Assembly: GCA_007694885.1 (NCBI GenBank)
Contig: REEW01000102.1
Location: forward strand, 1 to 42,716
Direction of reading: 5' to 3'
Origin: Wenzhouxiangella sp.
Lineage (GTDB): Bacteria > Pseudomonadota > Gammaproteobacteria > Xanthomonadales > Wenzhouxiangellaceae
Length of the DNA: 42,716 nt
The notes under the pieces were generated by a model, which saw nothing but the letters and a program-made list of their open reading frames with translations, ran no database searches and was not told the DNA's origin. Numbering within the stretch: the first letter of the stretch is position 1; each line of letters opens with the position of its first letter. The translations under genes and the position numbers were made by a program. Of this stretch, positions 1,737 to 7,422 are shown one piece after another.

Positions 1737-3068
1737 ATGAGTGAAACTGCACCAACCGCGCGTCCAGGCAATCCGCTATCCAAAGCCACGGGCTCTGGCG
1801 ATCAATTCGTCGAAATGATCGCCGAGGCCACCGCGCCGCTGACCGGCGGCGATTACTTCCGCACCCTGGTTGCACGGCTGGCCAAGCTGCTCGGTGTCGA
1901 GGTCGCGCTGGTCACCGAATGCCTGAACTACCCCGAAAACCACGTGCGCACCCTGGCCTTCTGGCACGGCTCGAGCTTTTCCGAGGACATCAGCTTCGAC
2001 CTGGTCGGCACCCCCTGCGAGGACGTGATCCACGGCGGCGAATTCTGCTTCTACCCGGACCGGATGCGCGAGCGCTTCCCCGAATGGTCAGCCGAGGAAG
2101 GCGGCGTGGAGAGCTTCATCGGCATCCCGGTCTTCGCCCCCAGCGACGGTCGCGTGGTCGGCCACATTGCCGTCTATGACCACCAGCGCATCGATGAAGA
2201 CCGGATCGTGGAGTCGATGTTCCGTATCATCGCCGCCCGCGTGGGTGCTGAAATCGAGCGCATGCAGTCCGAGCAGGCCCTGCGCGACAGCGAGGCGCGG
2301 GCGCGCCAGCACCTGAGCCAGCTGGCTCACGTCTCCCGCCTCGGCGCGCTGGGCGAGATGGCCTCGGCGCTGGCCCATGAAATCAACCAGCCGCTGACCA
2401 CGGTCACGACCTACGCCCAGACCTGTCTGCACCTGCTCGACCGGCCCGAGCCGGACCTCGAAGGGCTCAGAAAAGCCCTGCGCCACTCGCTGGAAGGTGC
2501 CCATCGGGCCCAGCATGTCGTCAAGCGTCTGCGCGCCTACGTCGCCCGTGGCGAACTCAAGACCCGGCTCATCCCGGTCCAGCGCCTGCTCGACGACTGC
2601 ATGGTCCTGCTCCAGACCGAGACCCGGCATCACCAGATCGATCTGGATCTGGACCTGCCGACCGAGGTCTTGCGCATCCGGGTCGATACCGTGCTGATCC
2701 AGCAGGTTCTGCTCAACCTGGTTCGAAACGCCGCCGATGCCATCAACCACAGCGAACGCCCCGATCGCCGCATCGGCCTGCGCGTGAGCCGATCGGATGA
2801 CGACATGGTCGAATTCCAGGTCGAGGACACCGGCACCGGAATTGCCCCGGAGATTCGACCCAGACTGTTCGAGCCCTTCGCCAGCTCTCGCCAGGACGGC
2901 CTCGGGATCGGCCTGTCCCTGTGCCGCTCGCTGATCGAAGCGCACGGCGGCAAACTCTGGCTGGCCGATACCTCGGAGCATGGCTCGTGTTTCCGTTTCT
3001 GCGTGCCGGCCGGTTGCGAACATGGTCGTGACTCCTCAGCCAGCGGCGAGCAGGCGGCAATCGGCTGA
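1737..3068 (+). CDS. FixL-like histidine kinase with N-terminal GAF domain
   Basis: A 443-residue soluble sensor kinase with no membrane segments. Residues about 30-175 form a GAF-like sensor domain, followed by a short coiled linker. The phosphoacceptor H-box is ALAHEINQPL with His214, a form typical of FixL/DctB-type kinases (HPK4). The N-box (LLNLVRNAADAI), G1 (VEDTGTGI) and G2 (GLGIGLSL) ATP-binding motifs are all intact. The obvious partner is the FixJ-like regulator encoded at 3736-4371 on the opposite strand. The GAF ligand cannot be read from the sequence. There is no heme PAS domain, so oxygen sensing as in true FixL is not implied. The 3' end overlaps the convergent sigma factor gene by 33 bases. 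Confidence 0.93.
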   Translation: MSETAPTARPGNPLSKATGSGDQFVEMIAEATAPLTGGDYFRTLVARLAKLLGVEVALVTECLNYPENHVRTLAFWHGSSFSEDISFDLVGTPCEDVIHGGEFCFYPDRMRERFPEWSAEEGGVESFIGIPVFAPSDGRVVGHIAVYDHQRIDEDRIVESMFRIIAARVGAEIERMQSEQALRDSEARARQHLSQLAHVSRLGALGEMASALAHEINQPLTTVTTYAQTCLHLLDRPEPDLEGLRKALRHSLEGAHRAQHVVKRLRAYVARGELKTRLIPVQRLLDDCMVLLQTETRHHQIDLDLDLPTEVLRIRVDTVLIQQVLLNLVRNAADAINHSERPDRRIGLRVSRSDDDMVEFQVEDTGTGIAPEIRPRLFEPFASSRQDGLGIGLSLCRSLIEAHGGKLWLADTSEHGSCFRFCVPAGCEHGRDSSASGEQAAIG

Positions 3069-3551
3069 GAAACGCTCCTTGAGCTGCTGACGGGCCCGGT
3101 GGACCCGCGTCATCGCGGCGCTGCGGCTGATGCCCAGTACGCTGGTGATTTCGCCGATGGAGCAGCCCAGAACGGCCTGCATGCGCAGCGGTTCGGCATA
3201 CTTGCGCGGCAGTTTGGCGAGTTCGACCCGGATCTGTCCGTTGAGCATCAGCGTTTCGGCATCGACCTGGTCGGTGTCTGCGACGTGACGATCTTCGATA
3301 TCGACCGTGTCGAGACGCTTGCGCTCGAAGCGGCGAGCGTTCTCGCGGCGCAGCGTCGTCAGCAGCCAGGGCTTGACCGCCTGGGGATCCCGAAGCTGGT
3401 CGATCTTGCGCCAGGCCCGGATCATGGTTTCCTGGACCAGGTCCTGGGCCACTTCGCGGTCTCCGGTCAGCCAGCAGCCGAAGCGGAACAGATCGTCGGC
3501 ATGGGCGGCGACCAGGGTGTCGAAACGAGCGCTCTGGGTGTTTGCGGGCAT
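3036..3551 (-). CDS. ECF-type RNA polymerase sigma factor
   Basis: 171 residues with both sigma-70 core regions. Region 2 runs from about residue 10 to 75 (ADDLFRFGCWLTGDREVAQDLVQET, then AWRKIDQL and the -10-binding KPWLLTTLRR). Region 4 covers about 110-165 (KLPRKYAEPLRMQAVLGCSIGEITSVLGISRSAAMTRVHRAR). There is no C-terminal extension and no adjacent anti-sigma gene. I chose ATG 3551 because GGAGACAGG lies just upstream and the family begins there; the frame stays open upstream without family resemblance. Its neighbours are the convergent kinase gene and, upstream on the same strand, the FixJ-like regulator and hvf operon. ECF sigma factors are known regulators of related DUF692/DUF2063 metal-stress clusters, so control of hvf is a reasonable but unproven inference. 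Confidence 0.93.
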   Translation of the reverse strand: MPANTQSARFDTLVAAHADDLFRFGCWLTGDREVAQDLVQETMIRAWRKIDQLRDPQAVKPWLLTTLRRENARRFERKRLDTVDIEDRHVADTDQVDAETLMLNGQIRVELAKLPRKYAEPLRMQAVLGCSIGEITSVLGISRSAAMTRVHRARQQLKERFSADCRLLAAG

Positions 3552-3561
3552 GTCCTGTCTC

Positions 3562-3735: not shown

Positions 3736-4371
3736 TCAGAGCAGCCAGTCGCGGTAGCTGTAGCTCGACAGCACCATGCGGACCAGGTCCGATCCGTTGC
3801 GCGCCTCGAGCTTGTCGAGAAGGTTGGAGCGGTGAATTTCCACCGTGCGGACGCTGATATCGAGCCCGGCGGCAATCACCTTGTTGAGCTTGCCTTCCAG
3901 GATGCCTTCCATGACCTCACGCTCGCGCGGGGTCAGCTTGGCCAGGCGCGCTTCCACATCGCTGACCGCGGCCACCCCGACTTGCTCGACCCGGTCGATT
4001 TCCAGCGCGTTATCGAGTTTGTCCAGCAGCAACTCGGCGTCGAACGGCTTTTCGAGAAAATCCAGCGCCCCGGCCTGGACCGCGCGTACGGCCATGCCGA
4101 TATCACCATGGCCGGAAATAAAGACCACGGGCATCCGGATGCCGGCCTCGCGCAGACGATCCTGAAGCGCCAGCCCGTCCATGCCCGGCATGCACACATC
4201 CAGCAGCAGGCAACCGCGATCGGCAGGCCCGACCACCTCGAGCAGGGCTTGCGCCGACTCAAACAGACGGTACGGCATTTCGTGGCTGTCGAGCATGAAG
4301 CCGATCGCCTCGCGAACCGCCTGGTCATCGTCGGCGACCCAGACCCGGGTTCCTGTGGCTGCGGTGTTCAC
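3736..4371 (-). CDS. FixJ-like response regulator (receiver plus LuxR-type HTH)
   Basis: A 211-residue DNA-binding regulator. The receiver domain covers residues 8-125 with the acidic pocket DDD at 14-16, phosphoacceptor Asp58 in LLLDVCMPGMDG, the Thr/Ser position in FISGHGD and Lys in LEKPFD. The output domain is a LuxR/FixJ helix-turn-helix (LTPREREVMEGILEGKLNKVIAAGLDISVRTVEIHRSNLLDKL in pieces). I placed the start at GTG 4371, 8 bases after a strong GGAGG; the longer open frame upstream is unrelated to the family. It lies 84 bases after hvfX on the same strand, so it may be read through from the hvf operon. Its cognate kinase is almost certainly the GAF kinase at 1737-3068. Confidence 0.93.
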   Translation of the reverse strand: MNTAATGTRVWVADDDQAVREAIGFMLDSHEMPYRLFESAQALLEVVGPADRGCLLLDVCMPGMDGLALQDRLREAGIRMPVVFISGHGDIGMAVRAVQAGALDFLEKPFDAELLLDKLDNALEIDRVEQVGVAAVSDVEARLAKLTPREREVMEGILEGKLNKVIAAGLDISVRTVEIHRSNLLDKLEARNGSDLVRMVLSSYSYRDWLL

Positions 4372-4455: not shown

Positions 4456-5145
4456 TCAGGCCGGCTGCTCGGCATACCGGCCATAGCCGGTGTAGCCCAG
4501 CAGTCCGGCGCTGATCAACAGCAACACGATACCCCAGGACGGGATCAGATAGACCGTGCCCAGGCCAACCACCAGCGCGGCCAGGCCGAAGGCGAACAAA
4601 TCCTCGCGGCGCTCGTTCAACAGGCCATCGCGGCGGGTCAGCTTGACCAGCAGGTGATCCAGGCTGAGCTTGCCGCCACCCCAGAACACCAGCGGCAGAA
4701 TCATGGCCAGGAACAAAAACGGAATCCGGAAGTTGCCGCGAAACTCACCGTCCTCGACCACCCGTGAGACCGAGTAGCCCTCCCAGAGCTGCCCCAGGCT
4801 GTCCCAGGACGCCGGCCAGTGGACTGCGGCGATGGCCACCACGGTGATCACCAGCAGGGAAAAGGCGAAAAACCGGGTAAACAATCCCAGGACCAGGGCA
4901 ATCGCTGCCAGCATTTCGCCCCAGGTGACCATGAACCAGTTCATGTTGGCCGACAGCAGGCCGAAGGGAAAGACGAAATCCTGGTTGACAAACCAGCGTG
5001 GCGCCTCGGTACCGACGGTGAACTTGCCGTGGCCGGCGGTCCAGAATTCATAGGCCAGCAGCAGGCGCAGGCCGATCGGGGCAACCCAGTCGCCACTGCC
5101 GCGCAGCCGCTGGGTCAATTCGTCGTAGAACTTGATGATCTTCAT
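4456..5145 (-). CDS. hvfX: DoxX-family membrane protein of the hvf operon (HvfX)
   Basis: 229 residues with a DoxX/SURF4-type fold. It opens with a short cytoplasmic helix, then WVAPIGLRLLLAYEFWTAGHGKF (the DoxX signature region). Several hydrophobic helices follow, including LAAIALVLGLFTRFFAFSLLVITVVAIA, IPFLFLAMILPLVFWGGG and two at the C-terminus. ATG 5145 is preceded by GAGGAG at good spacing; a GTG six bases earlier overlaps that site and is less likely. DoxX proteins accompany DUF692/DUF2063 genes in the Haemophilus hvf and Cupriavidus gig clusters. Their exact job, perhaps redox or quinone chemistry at the membrane, is not settled. It lies 77 bases after hvfC, in the same operon. Confidence 0.88.
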   Translation of the reverse strand: MKIIKFYDELTQRLRGSGDWVAPIGLRLLLAYEFWTAGHGKFTVGTEAPRWFVNQDFVFPFGLLSANMNWFMVTWGEMLAAIALVLGLFTRFFAFSLLVITVVAIAAVHWPASWDSLGQLWEGYSVSRVVEDGEFRGNFRIPFLFLAMILPLVFWGGGKLSLDHLLVKLTRRDGLLNERREDLFAFGLAALVVGLGTVYLIPSWGIVLLLISAGLLGYTGYGRYAEQPA

Positions 5146-5222
5146 GCTCACTCCTCATTCAGTCGTTCGATTGGGTCGGTCCATGCGTTGTGCGAGCAAG
5201 GCCGGCTTAAAGAGCGAGAGAT

Positions 5223-6008
5223 TCAGGCGGGCAGAATCGGCGAGATCACTTCCCGTTGGCTCAGGTGTTGCAGCATCCCGAACCCGGCTTCGATCACCCG
5301 ATCCGGGGGGCTGATGTTCAACTCCTCGGCCAGCGCTTGCAGTAAAACCAGACCGGTCGAGTTGCGGTTGGATTGCATCCGCAGCAGGAATTGCAGGGTG
5401 AAATCGTTGACTCGCTCGAACGCTACCCGGTCGTCGTGGCGGCGGTAGACAAGCAGATTGACGGGTTGGTCCAGCGGCTGGTCGGGAACAAACGCCGGCC
5501 GGATCTGATGAACCGGCCACTGGTAGCGCGCCATCTGCAGGGTCGGGTTGAGGGCGGGAGCGTAGTCGGACCGTTCCGGTCCAGCCGGGCGCGGCTCCGG
5601 GGGCTCGGACTCGTGCAGTCGCGCCAGCGTCTCCAGGTATTCCCAGTGAACCAGCTCGGCCATCCACGGCCGATCGCCCAGCCAGTGCTCGCCAGGGCCG
5701 GCCATGAAGGCCAGCAGTTCGCTGCCGATCTCGGGGAACAGGGGCGTGGTCGAGCGATGCGCGACCATCAATTCCCGGATCAGGCCATCCCACTCAACAT
5801 CGTCCAGCAGGCGCCGAAGGACCGGGAAATTGCGCGCCATGAGGTTGCGCAGGTTGCCGAAAAACAGCCTTCGATAGACCGCCATACGGCGATCTTCGAC
5901 GCCCTCGGGCGCCGGGCAGTTCCCGGGATCACGCAAGTGCGCGGCAAACTCCGCCTGCAGGCGGAGCATGCGTTCAGGCGGCAGCGTGCTGTCCGGCTTT
6001 TCCGCCAT
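5223..6008 (-). CDS. hvfC: DUF2063 partner protein of the MNIO enzyme (HvfC)
   Basis: 261 residues. The N-terminal half (about 10-105) is the helical DUF2063 domain (LRLQAEFAAHLRDP, VYRRLFFGNLRNLMARNFPVLRRLL), often listed as a putative DNA-binding domain. In MNIO systems it acts as the recognition partner that delivers the precursor peptide to the iron enzyme. The C-terminal half contains LVYRRHDDRVAFERVNDFTLQFLLRM and resembles the second domain of HvfC-type proteins. ATG 6008 has AAGGG just upstream and lies 35 bases inside the end of hvfB, implying translational coupling. Longer in-frame starts upstream give a sequence unlike the family. Located between hvfB and hvfX. Confidence 0.9.
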   Translation of the reverse strand: MAEKPDSTLPPERMLRLQAEFAAHLRDPGNCPAPEGVEDRRMAVYRRLFFGNLRNLMARNFPVLRRLLDDVEWDGLIRELMVAHRSTTPLFPEIGSELLAFMAGPGEHWLGDRPWMAELVHWEYLETLARLHESEPPEPRPAGPERSDYAPALNPTLQMARYQWPVHQIRPAFVPDQPLDQPVNLLVYRRHDDRVAFERVNDFTLQFLLRMQSNRNSTGLVLLQALAEELNISPPDRVIEAGFGMLQHLSQREVISPILPA

Positions 6009-6828
6009 AGCCCTTCTGGATATCGGTGATGGTCGTGACTTCGGCCAGCAGTTCGGCCAGCGGCGGGAAATTGAAATCCCGTTCCAGCACCGTCGGCACC
6101 GGGCCGAGGAAATCATAGGCGTGCCGCAACAGGCCCCAGACCGGGTCGGCCACGGCCGCGCCGTGGGTGTCGACGATCAGGTCGTCGGCCTCGTGGTGAT
6201 GACCGGCGATGTGCAGGTAGGCGACCCGATCGTGCGGCAGCCCGGCAAGAAATTCATCCGGATCATAGCCGTGGTTGACGCTGTTGACGTGGACGTTGTT
6301 GACATCCAGCAGCAGCAGGCAGTCGGCGCGCGAGCAAACCTCGTTGATGAATTCCAGCTCGGTCATTTCGGTCGCCACGGTCGCGTAGTAGGAAATGTTT
6401 TCCACAGCAATCCGGCGACCGAGCGCGTCCTGGACCTGCTCGATCCGGCCGACAACCCAGTCCACCGTTTCCGGCAAAAACGGCAGCGGCATCAGGTCGT
6501 ACAGATGGCCGTGCTCGGAACAGTAACTGAGATGCTCGGAAAAGCAATCCACCTCGTGCTCGTCAAGAAAGCCCTTGAGGCGTTTCAGGAAGGTGCGATC
6601 CAGCGGCTCGGGCGCGCCGATCGACAACGACAGGCCGTGGCAGACAAAAGGGAACCGTTCGGTATACCAGGCCAGCTGGCGGCGCAACTTGCCGCCGACG
6701 CCGATCCAGTTTTCCGGCGCCAGCTCCATGAAACCGACCCCGGACAGATCAGCCTCCTGCAGCGGGCCCAGCAGGGCCCGCCGCAGTCCGAGTCCGGCAC
6801 CTTGTACCGATGTTGGGCTCGAGGTCAT
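5974..6828 (-). CDS. hvfB: MNIO (DUF692) multinuclear iron oxidative enzyme (HvfB)
   Basis: 284 residues of the DUF692 TIM-barrel family, the same family as methanobactin MbnB. These enzymes use two or three iron ions and oxygen to rewrite cysteine residues of a precursor peptide, for example into oxazolone-thioamide groups. The metal-ligand motifs appear in order: CHGLSLS, SEHLSY, AVENISYY, LLDVNNVHVNSVNHG, YLHIAGHH, VDTHGAAV and VLERDFN. No key ligand appears to be missing. Translation begins at ATG 6828, 18 bases after the hvfA stop codon, and the 3' end overlaps hvfC. Its likely substrate is HvfA, the EGACG-repeat peptide encoded immediately upstream. Family assignment is very secure; the exact product is inferred from studied relatives. 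Confidence 0.95.
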   Translation of the reverse strand: MTSSPTSVQGAGLGLRRALLGPLQEADLSGVGFMELAPENWIGVGGKLRRQLAWYTERFPFVCHGLSLSIGAPEPLDRTFLKRLKGFLDEHEVDCFSEHLSYCSEHGHLYDLMPLPFLPETVDWVVGRIEQVQDALGRRIAVENISYYATVATEMTELEFINEVCSRADCLLLLDVNNVHVNSVNHGYDPDEFLAGLPHDRVAYLHIAGHHHEADDLIVDTHGAAVADPVWGLLRHAYDFLGPVPTVLERDFNFPPLAELLAEVTTITDIQKGYGGKAGQHAAA

Positions 6829-6846
6829 GCCGATTCCAGCGATTTT

Positions 6847-7161
6847 TCAGGCTTCGCCGCAGGCGCCTTCACCGCAGGCACCCTCTCCGCAGGCGCCCTC
6901 ACCGCAAGCACCTTCTTCGTCCTTGTCGTCGTTGTCTTCGTCGTCCTCGCCACAGGCACCTTCGCCGCAGGCGCCCTCGCCGCAGGCGCCTTCACCGCAG
7001 GCGCCTTCTTCGAAGTTGACCTGTTGCGACATGAAGCCGCGATCCAGCGCTTCGGCCTCGAACAGGTTGTCGGCAGACGGATCGGCAGCAATCGCTCCGA
7101 GCGAGAAGGACAAGGCAGATAGAGTGCCAATGGCGGTGGTCAGCAGTTTCTTGTCGGTCAT
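6847..7161 (-). CDS. hvfA: EGACG-repeat precursor peptide of a copper-type RiPP (HvfA)
   Basis: A 104-residue secreted peptide. Residues 1-26 form a Sec signal peptide (MTDKKLLTT, hydrophobic core, AIAA), followed by a conserved leader-like segment (DPSADNLFEAEALDRGFMSQQVNFE). Then come eight copies of the pentapeptide EGACG: four encoded at 6949-7008, an 11-residue acidic linker EDDEDNDDKDE at 6916-6948, and four more at 6856-6915. The only cysteines are the eight in the repeats. In studied HvfA proteins the repeat is EGKCG, whose cysteines are modified by HvfB/HvfC and bind copper. Here alanine replaces lysine throughout. The start at ATG 7161 has GGAGA 7 bases upstream. It is the first gene of the hvf operon. 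Confidence 0.93.
   Translation of the reverse strand: MTDKKLLTTAIGTLSALSFSLGAIAADPSADNLFEAEALDRGFMSQQVNFEEGACGEGACGEGACGEGACGEDDEDNDDKDEEGACGEGACGEGACGEGACGEA
6856..7008 (-). repeat. Coding repeats: two blocks of four 15-bp units in hvfA
   Basis: Each unit encodes EGACG. The two blocks (6949-7008 and 6856-6915) flank a 33-bp acidic linker. Units differ at third codon positions (GGC/GGT, TGC/TGT, GAA/GAG), so the repeats are not recent identical duplications. The peptide pattern appears to be kept by selection. Confidence 0.95.
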
Positions 7162-7422
7162 GATCAAATCTCCAATGAGGGGAAAGGTTGTTTTCAAGAC
7201 TAGCCGTCTCGAGGCGGAATACGGCGGGTCTGTTGATGCCCGCTTGCTGTACCAGACCGGAACCCGGCCGGAATGATTGCAGGCGTTTTCGTTCAATCGA
7301 GTGGACTTGGGACGCCACTGGCAGTATGCTTCGCGCCCATCGTTTGCTCGATCACCGCGAACAGCCTAAACGGCAGTGGCAGGTCGGTGCAAGCGCACCT
7401 ACTTCCGGCCAGAGTCGAGCTT
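7162..7422. other. Intergenic region between divergent hvfA and the methyltransferase gene
   Basis: These 261 bases must hold the hvf promoter on the minus strand and the methyltransferase promoter on the plus strand. I see the hvfA ribosome binding site near its start codon, but no convincing sigma-70 hexamer pair. That would be compatible with an ECF-type promoter, whose consensus I cannot define here. No terminator or palindrome stands out. Confidence 0.5.

Follow-up and report, generated by a model that had tools for sequence, protein, structure and literature searches.

The window (the whole stretch of 42,716 nucleotides analysed here) contains an hvfABCX operon on the minus strand, its four genes following in close succession from 7161 to 4456, and the span of 4456-7161 given for it in an earlier, sequence-only reading is correct. 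The first gene, hvfA (6847..7161, identified as an open reading frame and with profile models), encodes a precursor peptide of 104 residues; hvfB (5974..6828; profile models, alignment with a structural homologue and active-site columns) encodes an MNIO (DUF692) of 284 residues; hvfC (5223..6008; profile models) encodes a DUF2063/NGO1945 partner protein (PME1, RRE); and hvfX (4456..5145; profile models) encodes a DoxX-type membrane protein. The earlier assignment to the MNIO RiPP operons of the hvfABCX kind is confirmed, with HvfB (413.1 bits against PRK05409/HvfB, cut-off 360), HvfC (239.7 bits, cut-off 142) and HvfX (109 bits, cut-off 80) all scoring over the curated cut-offs of their NCBIfam models. 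HvfB also matches the Pfam family MbnB_TglH_ChrH with 341 bits, and HvfC matches DUF2063 and NGO1945_C. HvfA gave no match in a Pfam search; it passes the repeat-domain model NF050137 (24.3 bits, cut-off 19.5) but falls far below the cut-off of the NCBIfam HvfA equivalog NF050188, which represents oxazolin itself (27.7 vs 95 bits), and it is therefore a relative of oxazolin rather than the same peptide. Possessing an HvfB-type MNIO adjoining its precursor, a PME1, a DoxX/HvfX protein and a secreted EGxCG-repeat precursor, the locus is, as judged from its genes, a recognisable member of the known MNIO/PME1 kind of 5-thiooxazole metallophore system (oxazolin/fontiphorin, the 'captophorins').

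HvfA has the layout MTDKKLLTTAIGTLSALSFSLGAIA/ADPSADNLFEAEALDRGFMSQQVNFE-(EGACG)4-EDDEDNDDKDE-(EGACG)4-EA, in which the slash marks a cleavage site placed by eye and about residues 1-25 were judged, likewise by eye, to resemble a signal peptide. A recognition-like block, NLFEAEALDRGF (within 7068-7030, minus strand), looks conserved and reads NPF....L..GY in relatives. Two blocks of four EGACG repeats (6949..7008 and 6856..6915) lie either side of an 11-residue acidic linker, EDDEDNDDKDE (6916..6948), all on the minus strand, and every one of the eight cysteines falls inside an EGACG; the signal peptide and the 4+4 arrangement described earlier are both borne out. Seven distinct DNA sequences are found among the eight 15-nucleotide copies of the repeat. 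Compared pairwise, the copies differ 63 times, always silently, and variation is confined to the third positions of the five codons, all of which vary; the array is thus coding sequence kept as such, not one read by chance, and the repeats are under purifying selection. The suggestion of two four-cysteine metal sites, on the other hand, does not survive comparison with relatives, where arrangements of 3+3, 3+5, 4+6, 2+3+2 and 2+2+2+2 occur; with block sizes running from 1 to 6, a fixed 4+4 stoichiometry was rejected. An acidic linker is common in Wenzhouxiangella, but neither the linker sequence nor the size of the blocks is constant. At three other loci (L089, L098 and L162) the repeat blocks of the HvfA-type precursors are separated by a stretch resembling an EF-hand (DKDGDGSVSRAEF or similar), whereas the EF-hand fusions of the MNIO landscape paper are C-terminal (PMC12452194).

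The survey covered 121 HvfB-type loci, drawn from the family, order and class to which the window belongs, and the precursor was read in 108 of them. The comparison of EGACG with EGKCG homologues that the sequence-only reading had proposed showed position 3 of the repeat to be Lys in 449 of 551 repeats outside the family but Ser or Ala in 213 of 259 within it (Ser 123, Ala 90), where only 17 are Lys. Replacement of Lys by Ala in all eight repeats is thus real, but it does not set this locus apart: loss of the lysine and acidity are both common to the whole family, in which the median core charge per residue is about -0.29, against about +0.03 outside. All-Ala arrays are found at five Wenzhouxiangella loci (the window, L055, L057, L058 and L059), and at least 10 changes between Lys and non-Lys are needed on the HvfB tree. 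Among 84,980 species genomes (GTDB species), the ten-residue EGACGEGACG occurs in 17 stretches, 13 of them within an hvfA-like open reading frame (twelve Wenzhouxiangella-type and one in a Pseudomonadales MAG); the other four, in unrelated genera, showed no such frame. The Lys-free substrate variant is uncommon and family-wide. Separately, we observed that an HvfA-like protein of a Pseudomonadales MAG outside the family (L014, CALSRU010000004.1:296001-304000) has four EGACG repeats, and that L168 (G045:C4:59500-70719) has EGECG repeats, with Glu before Cys, a residue which at that position severely impaired FonBC processing in a published assay.

HvfB aligns over nearly its full length with 3BWW, an MNIO from Histophilus somni. 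Nine residues, H99, E143, D175, N177, H206, D220, H222, E249 and D251, are invariant in the 121 loci; they comprise metal-site and catalytic residues, the iron ligands being assigned as in MbnB. None of the 33 family loci has lost the R16/R17 pair or the F252 that mark the Lys-Cys class, and the window enzyme shows R16 R17 and E249-R-D251-F252. A search for a compensating active-site change, in which N-terminal columns were masked and then checked separately, found none: only columns 124 and 145 split the family from the rest, and L115 and L168, unrelated loci also without Lys, do not share the family states there. One Hvf-type MNIO locus (L156, G229:C76:29500-46500) is unusual in that its precursor has CGTFCGG / KCGNICA instead of EGxCG and its HvfB has ERDL instead of ERDF.

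The oxazolone-thioamide product assumed in the earlier reading has been superseded, since fontiphorin, oxazolin and gonophorin contain 5-thiooxazoles, not oxazolone-thioamides (PMC13097082, PMC13419390). Every MNIO-PME1 product so far characterised carries 5-thiooxazole and as a rule binds Cu; for FonBC, in vitro modification of a variant with Ala at position 3, EAACGEGACG, is reported (PMC13097082). Because the HvfB residues are intact and FonBC accepts this variant, the product of HvfA is likely to carry eight 5-thiooxazoles, and HvfA is probably, by analogy with these relatives, a secreted Cu-binding peptide.

Alignment of hvfA upstream regions, in which the surrounding DNA is largely unrelated, revealed an ECF-type promoter motif composed of TGMAAK and CGGTCT, or sequences close to these, with 16 nt between them wherever it is present. 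The window has an exact match, TGCAAT-N16-CGGTCT, at 7254..7281 on the minus strand, with 120 nt from the start of the motif to the hvfA ATG. A second exact copy in the 3' end of hvfC (5350..5377, minus strand), about 205 nt before hvfX, is a candidate internal promoter; several motif-bearing relatives share it and every motif-free relative lacks it, though a conserved coding motif occupies part of the same sequence, and retention of the copy may therefore partly reflect coding constraint. Exact sites across 14 genomes numbered 61, compared with 11 for the reversed pattern; several of the 61 fall within coding sequence and are probably there by chance. In relatives the motif precedes relocated hvfC, hvfX, an ECF/DUF3379 gene pair (in genome G030 the site before the sigma gene is intergenic) and genes for thioredoxin, peroxiredoxin and MsrB, and other intergenic sites precede genes for AhpC/TSA, TlpA-like proteins, thioredoxin, MsrB, DUF3179, DUF4426 and a VTT/pyridine-nucleotide reductase. 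A weak motif-like sequence, CGTAAG-N16-CGGTCT, also occurs at 1673-1700 of the window, 64 nt upstream of a GAF kinase gene; among relatives it may be retained at L051, but elsewhere its conservation is not evident.

The relocation of hvfC was seen in a subclade of four genomes (G025, G026, G027 and G013; loci L057, L059, L060, L062 and L067, with L177-L180), where the gene lies apart from hvfB and next to nth and rnf-type genes, these neighbours being named from reading the proteins and not from a family search. Loss of hvfC in this subclade was considered and rejected, the gene being present elsewhere in the same genomes. In G025 and G026 the relocated hvfC has an exact motif immediately upstream, and hvfX is preceded by another. 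G025 combines two copies of hvfAB with a single hvfC, so the partner protein must act in trans.

The candidate recogniser of the motif is an ECF sigma factor whose gene (3036..3557, minus strand) is the second after hvfX, and which was identified from profile models and orthologue co-occurrence. Between the two lies the gene of a FixJ-like response regulator with a GTG start (3736..4371, minus strand; profile models, with the same gene after hvfX in several relatives), and convergent with the sigma gene is that of a GAF-domain histidine kinase (1737..3068, plus strand; profile models). Orthologues of the sigma factor occur in nearly all genomes with the motif before hvfA and in few without it: the motif (score at least 10/12) is present at 22 of 24 loci with an orthologue in the genome vs 2 of 15 without, an association confounded by ancestry, as the genomes are related and offer too few independent pairs (four, usually with two or three agreeing and none opposed) for the sign test to be significant. 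As exceptions, G005 and G022 have a variant motif and no detected sigma orthologue, and L084 and L057 lack the motif while the sigma factor is present in the genome. Upstream of the window's own sigma gene there is no clear motif (score 8/12). We propose, by inference, that this sigma factor recognises the motif, and the genes that follow the motif suggest that hvf is part of a regulon for envelope thiol/oxidative stress, comparable to those of Haemophilus RpoE2 and Neisseria sigma-E.

Taking together the features computed here (gene content, repeat structure, active-site residues, family-wide lysine loss, and the motif with its sigma co-occurrence), we consider it quite probable that the locus is a captophorin (oxazolin/fontiphorin-type) operon for a 5-thiooxazole Cu(I) peptide, induced under stress by an ECF sigma factor. 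For 5-thiooxazole formation, Cu binding and export we draw on the studied relatives: HvfC would bind the leader part of HvfA, the multi-iron centre of HvfB would oxidise the eight EGACG cysteines, with four electrons removed from each, to 5-thiooxazoles, and the peptide would be exported by Sec with removal of its signal peptide. Cu(I), and possibly other soft metals, would then be bound through the thiol-bearing rings in the periplasm or outside, where the DoxX protein HvfX may help metal binding in some way. The signal and the effect of charge are our own conjecture. Envelope thiol/oxidative stress, probably including copper stress, would lead the sigma factor to turn on the operon through the TGMAAK-N16-CGGTCT promoters; the Lys-to-Ala replacements would remove eight positive charges to give a strongly anionic product, and this change is expected to alter the solubility and aggregation of the metal-loaded peptide and not the installed chemistry.

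Two other accounts of the peptide itself may be weighed against this. Were HvfA left unmodified, its cysteines acting as ordinary thiols in a metallothionein-like or antioxidant role while HvfB and HvfC served another substrate, the divergence of the repeats from the consensus Lys motif and the thiol-redox proteins of the proposed regulon would both fit; but HvfB is the sole MNIO found in the host genome, hvfABC are adjacent, the active site is intact and the studied homologue FonBC modifies the Ala variant (PMC13097082), and we consider this account highly improbable. The Lys-free acidic peptide might instead be an adaptation to a hypersaline or alkaline habitat with its acidic proteomes. The far more negative family core agrees with this, as does the near restriction of EGACGEGACG in GTDB species to Wenzhouxiangella-type genomes, mostly CSSed MAGs, which we take to come from Cock Soda Lake sediment. 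However, the Lys/Arg fraction at position 3 showed no association with local protein acidity, estimated from short flanking stretches with reading frames filtered by codon position, whether among family loci (rho 0.11, p 0.54) or among the others (rho -0.08, p 0.48); over all loci together there is a weak correlation (rho -0.21, p 0.03), which is caused by the contrast between the two groups. Salt or alkali was on these grounds rejected as the cause of the lysine loss, and the adaptive account as a whole seems doubtful.

A further account concerns control of the operon, which could be driven mainly by the FixJ-like regulator and GAF kinase, or by a housekeeping promoter, with the sigma factor uninvolved. 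The regulator follows hvfX in seven loci including the window, down to about 63% identity and usually with the kinase, and in the window's clade the sigma gene adjoins these two genes and not a DUF3379 gene, none lying beside it in the window and no match to DUF3379 over the cut-off being found in the host genome (88% complete). Against this, genomes with no response regulator near hvf also carry the motif, its spacing of 16 nt unchanged, and it further stands before relocated hvfC, hvfX and the ECF/DUF3379 pair; control without the sigma factor appears improbable. For the sigma-dependent reading in its full form, we put the chances as evenly balanced: the 5-thiooxazole metallophore genes of the Wenzhouxiangellaceae and their neighbours would form a periplasmic thiol/oxidative-stress regulon under a PRK12517-like ECF sigma factor, elsewhere paired with DUF3379 (probably an anti-sigma factor), acting via TGMAAK-N16-CGGTCT; hvfC and hvfX, on moving, would each have kept or gained a promoter copy; and the window's clade would lack DUF3379 and have a FixJ-type two-component pair in its place. 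Within the part of the literature searched, we found no description of DUF3379 or of this pairing of sigma factor and motif.

The locus, which we take to come from a salt- and soda-lake bacterium, exemplifies natural Lys-free arrays. These show that an unchanged maturase active site is compatible with drift of the residue before the modified Cys among Lys, Ser, Ala, Asn and Thr, and they offer natural substrates for testing the role of the lysine in copper binding and aggregation. The motif, in turn, leads to a directly testable hypothesis about the conditions under which these widespread metallophores are produced, and would connect them with the repair of methionine and thiols in the envelope, the pattern seen in Haemophilus and Neisseria.

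Among known systems, an earlier reading had counted Cupriavidus gig as an EGKCG-type relative; the Cupriavidus DUF2282 precursor is the gig gene. In the landscape paper the Cupriavidus precursor shown is a DUF2282 (Buf1) bufferin, not an EGKCG-type peptide (PMC12452194). The bufferins Buf1 and Buf2 (DUF2282; 6/12-Cys) of the Caulobacter sigma-F regulon resemble the present system in combining MNIO, DUF2063 and DoxX proteins, in their link to metal stress and in the sigma-factor genes of Buf1 clusters (PMC3511200, PMC12452194), but their precursor type is unrelated; HvfB scored 269.7 bits against MNIO_BufB (cut-off 310), and HvfA matched neither DUF2282 nor any other Pfam family. The Buf_EGKCG/oxazolin precursors, the third largest precursor group of the MNIO landscape, share the Sec signal peptide; their profile is centred on repeated EGKCG, and the portion of that paper available to us describes no Lys-free family arrays (PMC12452194). 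Closest are fontiphorin (FonABC of Fontimonas thermophila; PMC13097082), likewise with a Lys-Cys class MNIO, a PME1 and repeated EGxCG five-mers, from which the window HvfA differs in its eight natural EGACG repeats, strongly acidic core and array split by an acidic linker, and oxazolin (hvfABCX of Haemophilus influenzae; PMC13419390), which has the same four genes, a signal peptide and C-terminal EGxCG repeats, but six EGKCG repeats arranged in AEGKCGEGKCG pairs. In Haemophilus, too, an ECF sigma factor (RpoE2) controls the DoxX operon, in a system that has a small cytoplasmic anti-sigma factor of 67 residues related to those of Neisseria and Streptomyces (PMC7907618). The gonophorin cluster of Neisseria, in the rpoE operon NMB2140-2145, is similarly an ECF-controlled MNIO/PME1/DoxX cluster along with msrAB (PMC2893595, PMC13097082), but the sigma gene lies inside the operon with a ZAS anti-sigma factor and the promoter is GTMAGBWTT / CGTCTAAH with a 12-13 nt spacer (PMC2893595). 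ECF control of hvf-type operons together with msrAB being established in both genera (PMC7907618, PMC2893595), the regulatory logic is known; the newer part, and the most useful new result, is the promoter motif and the proposed sigma regulon.
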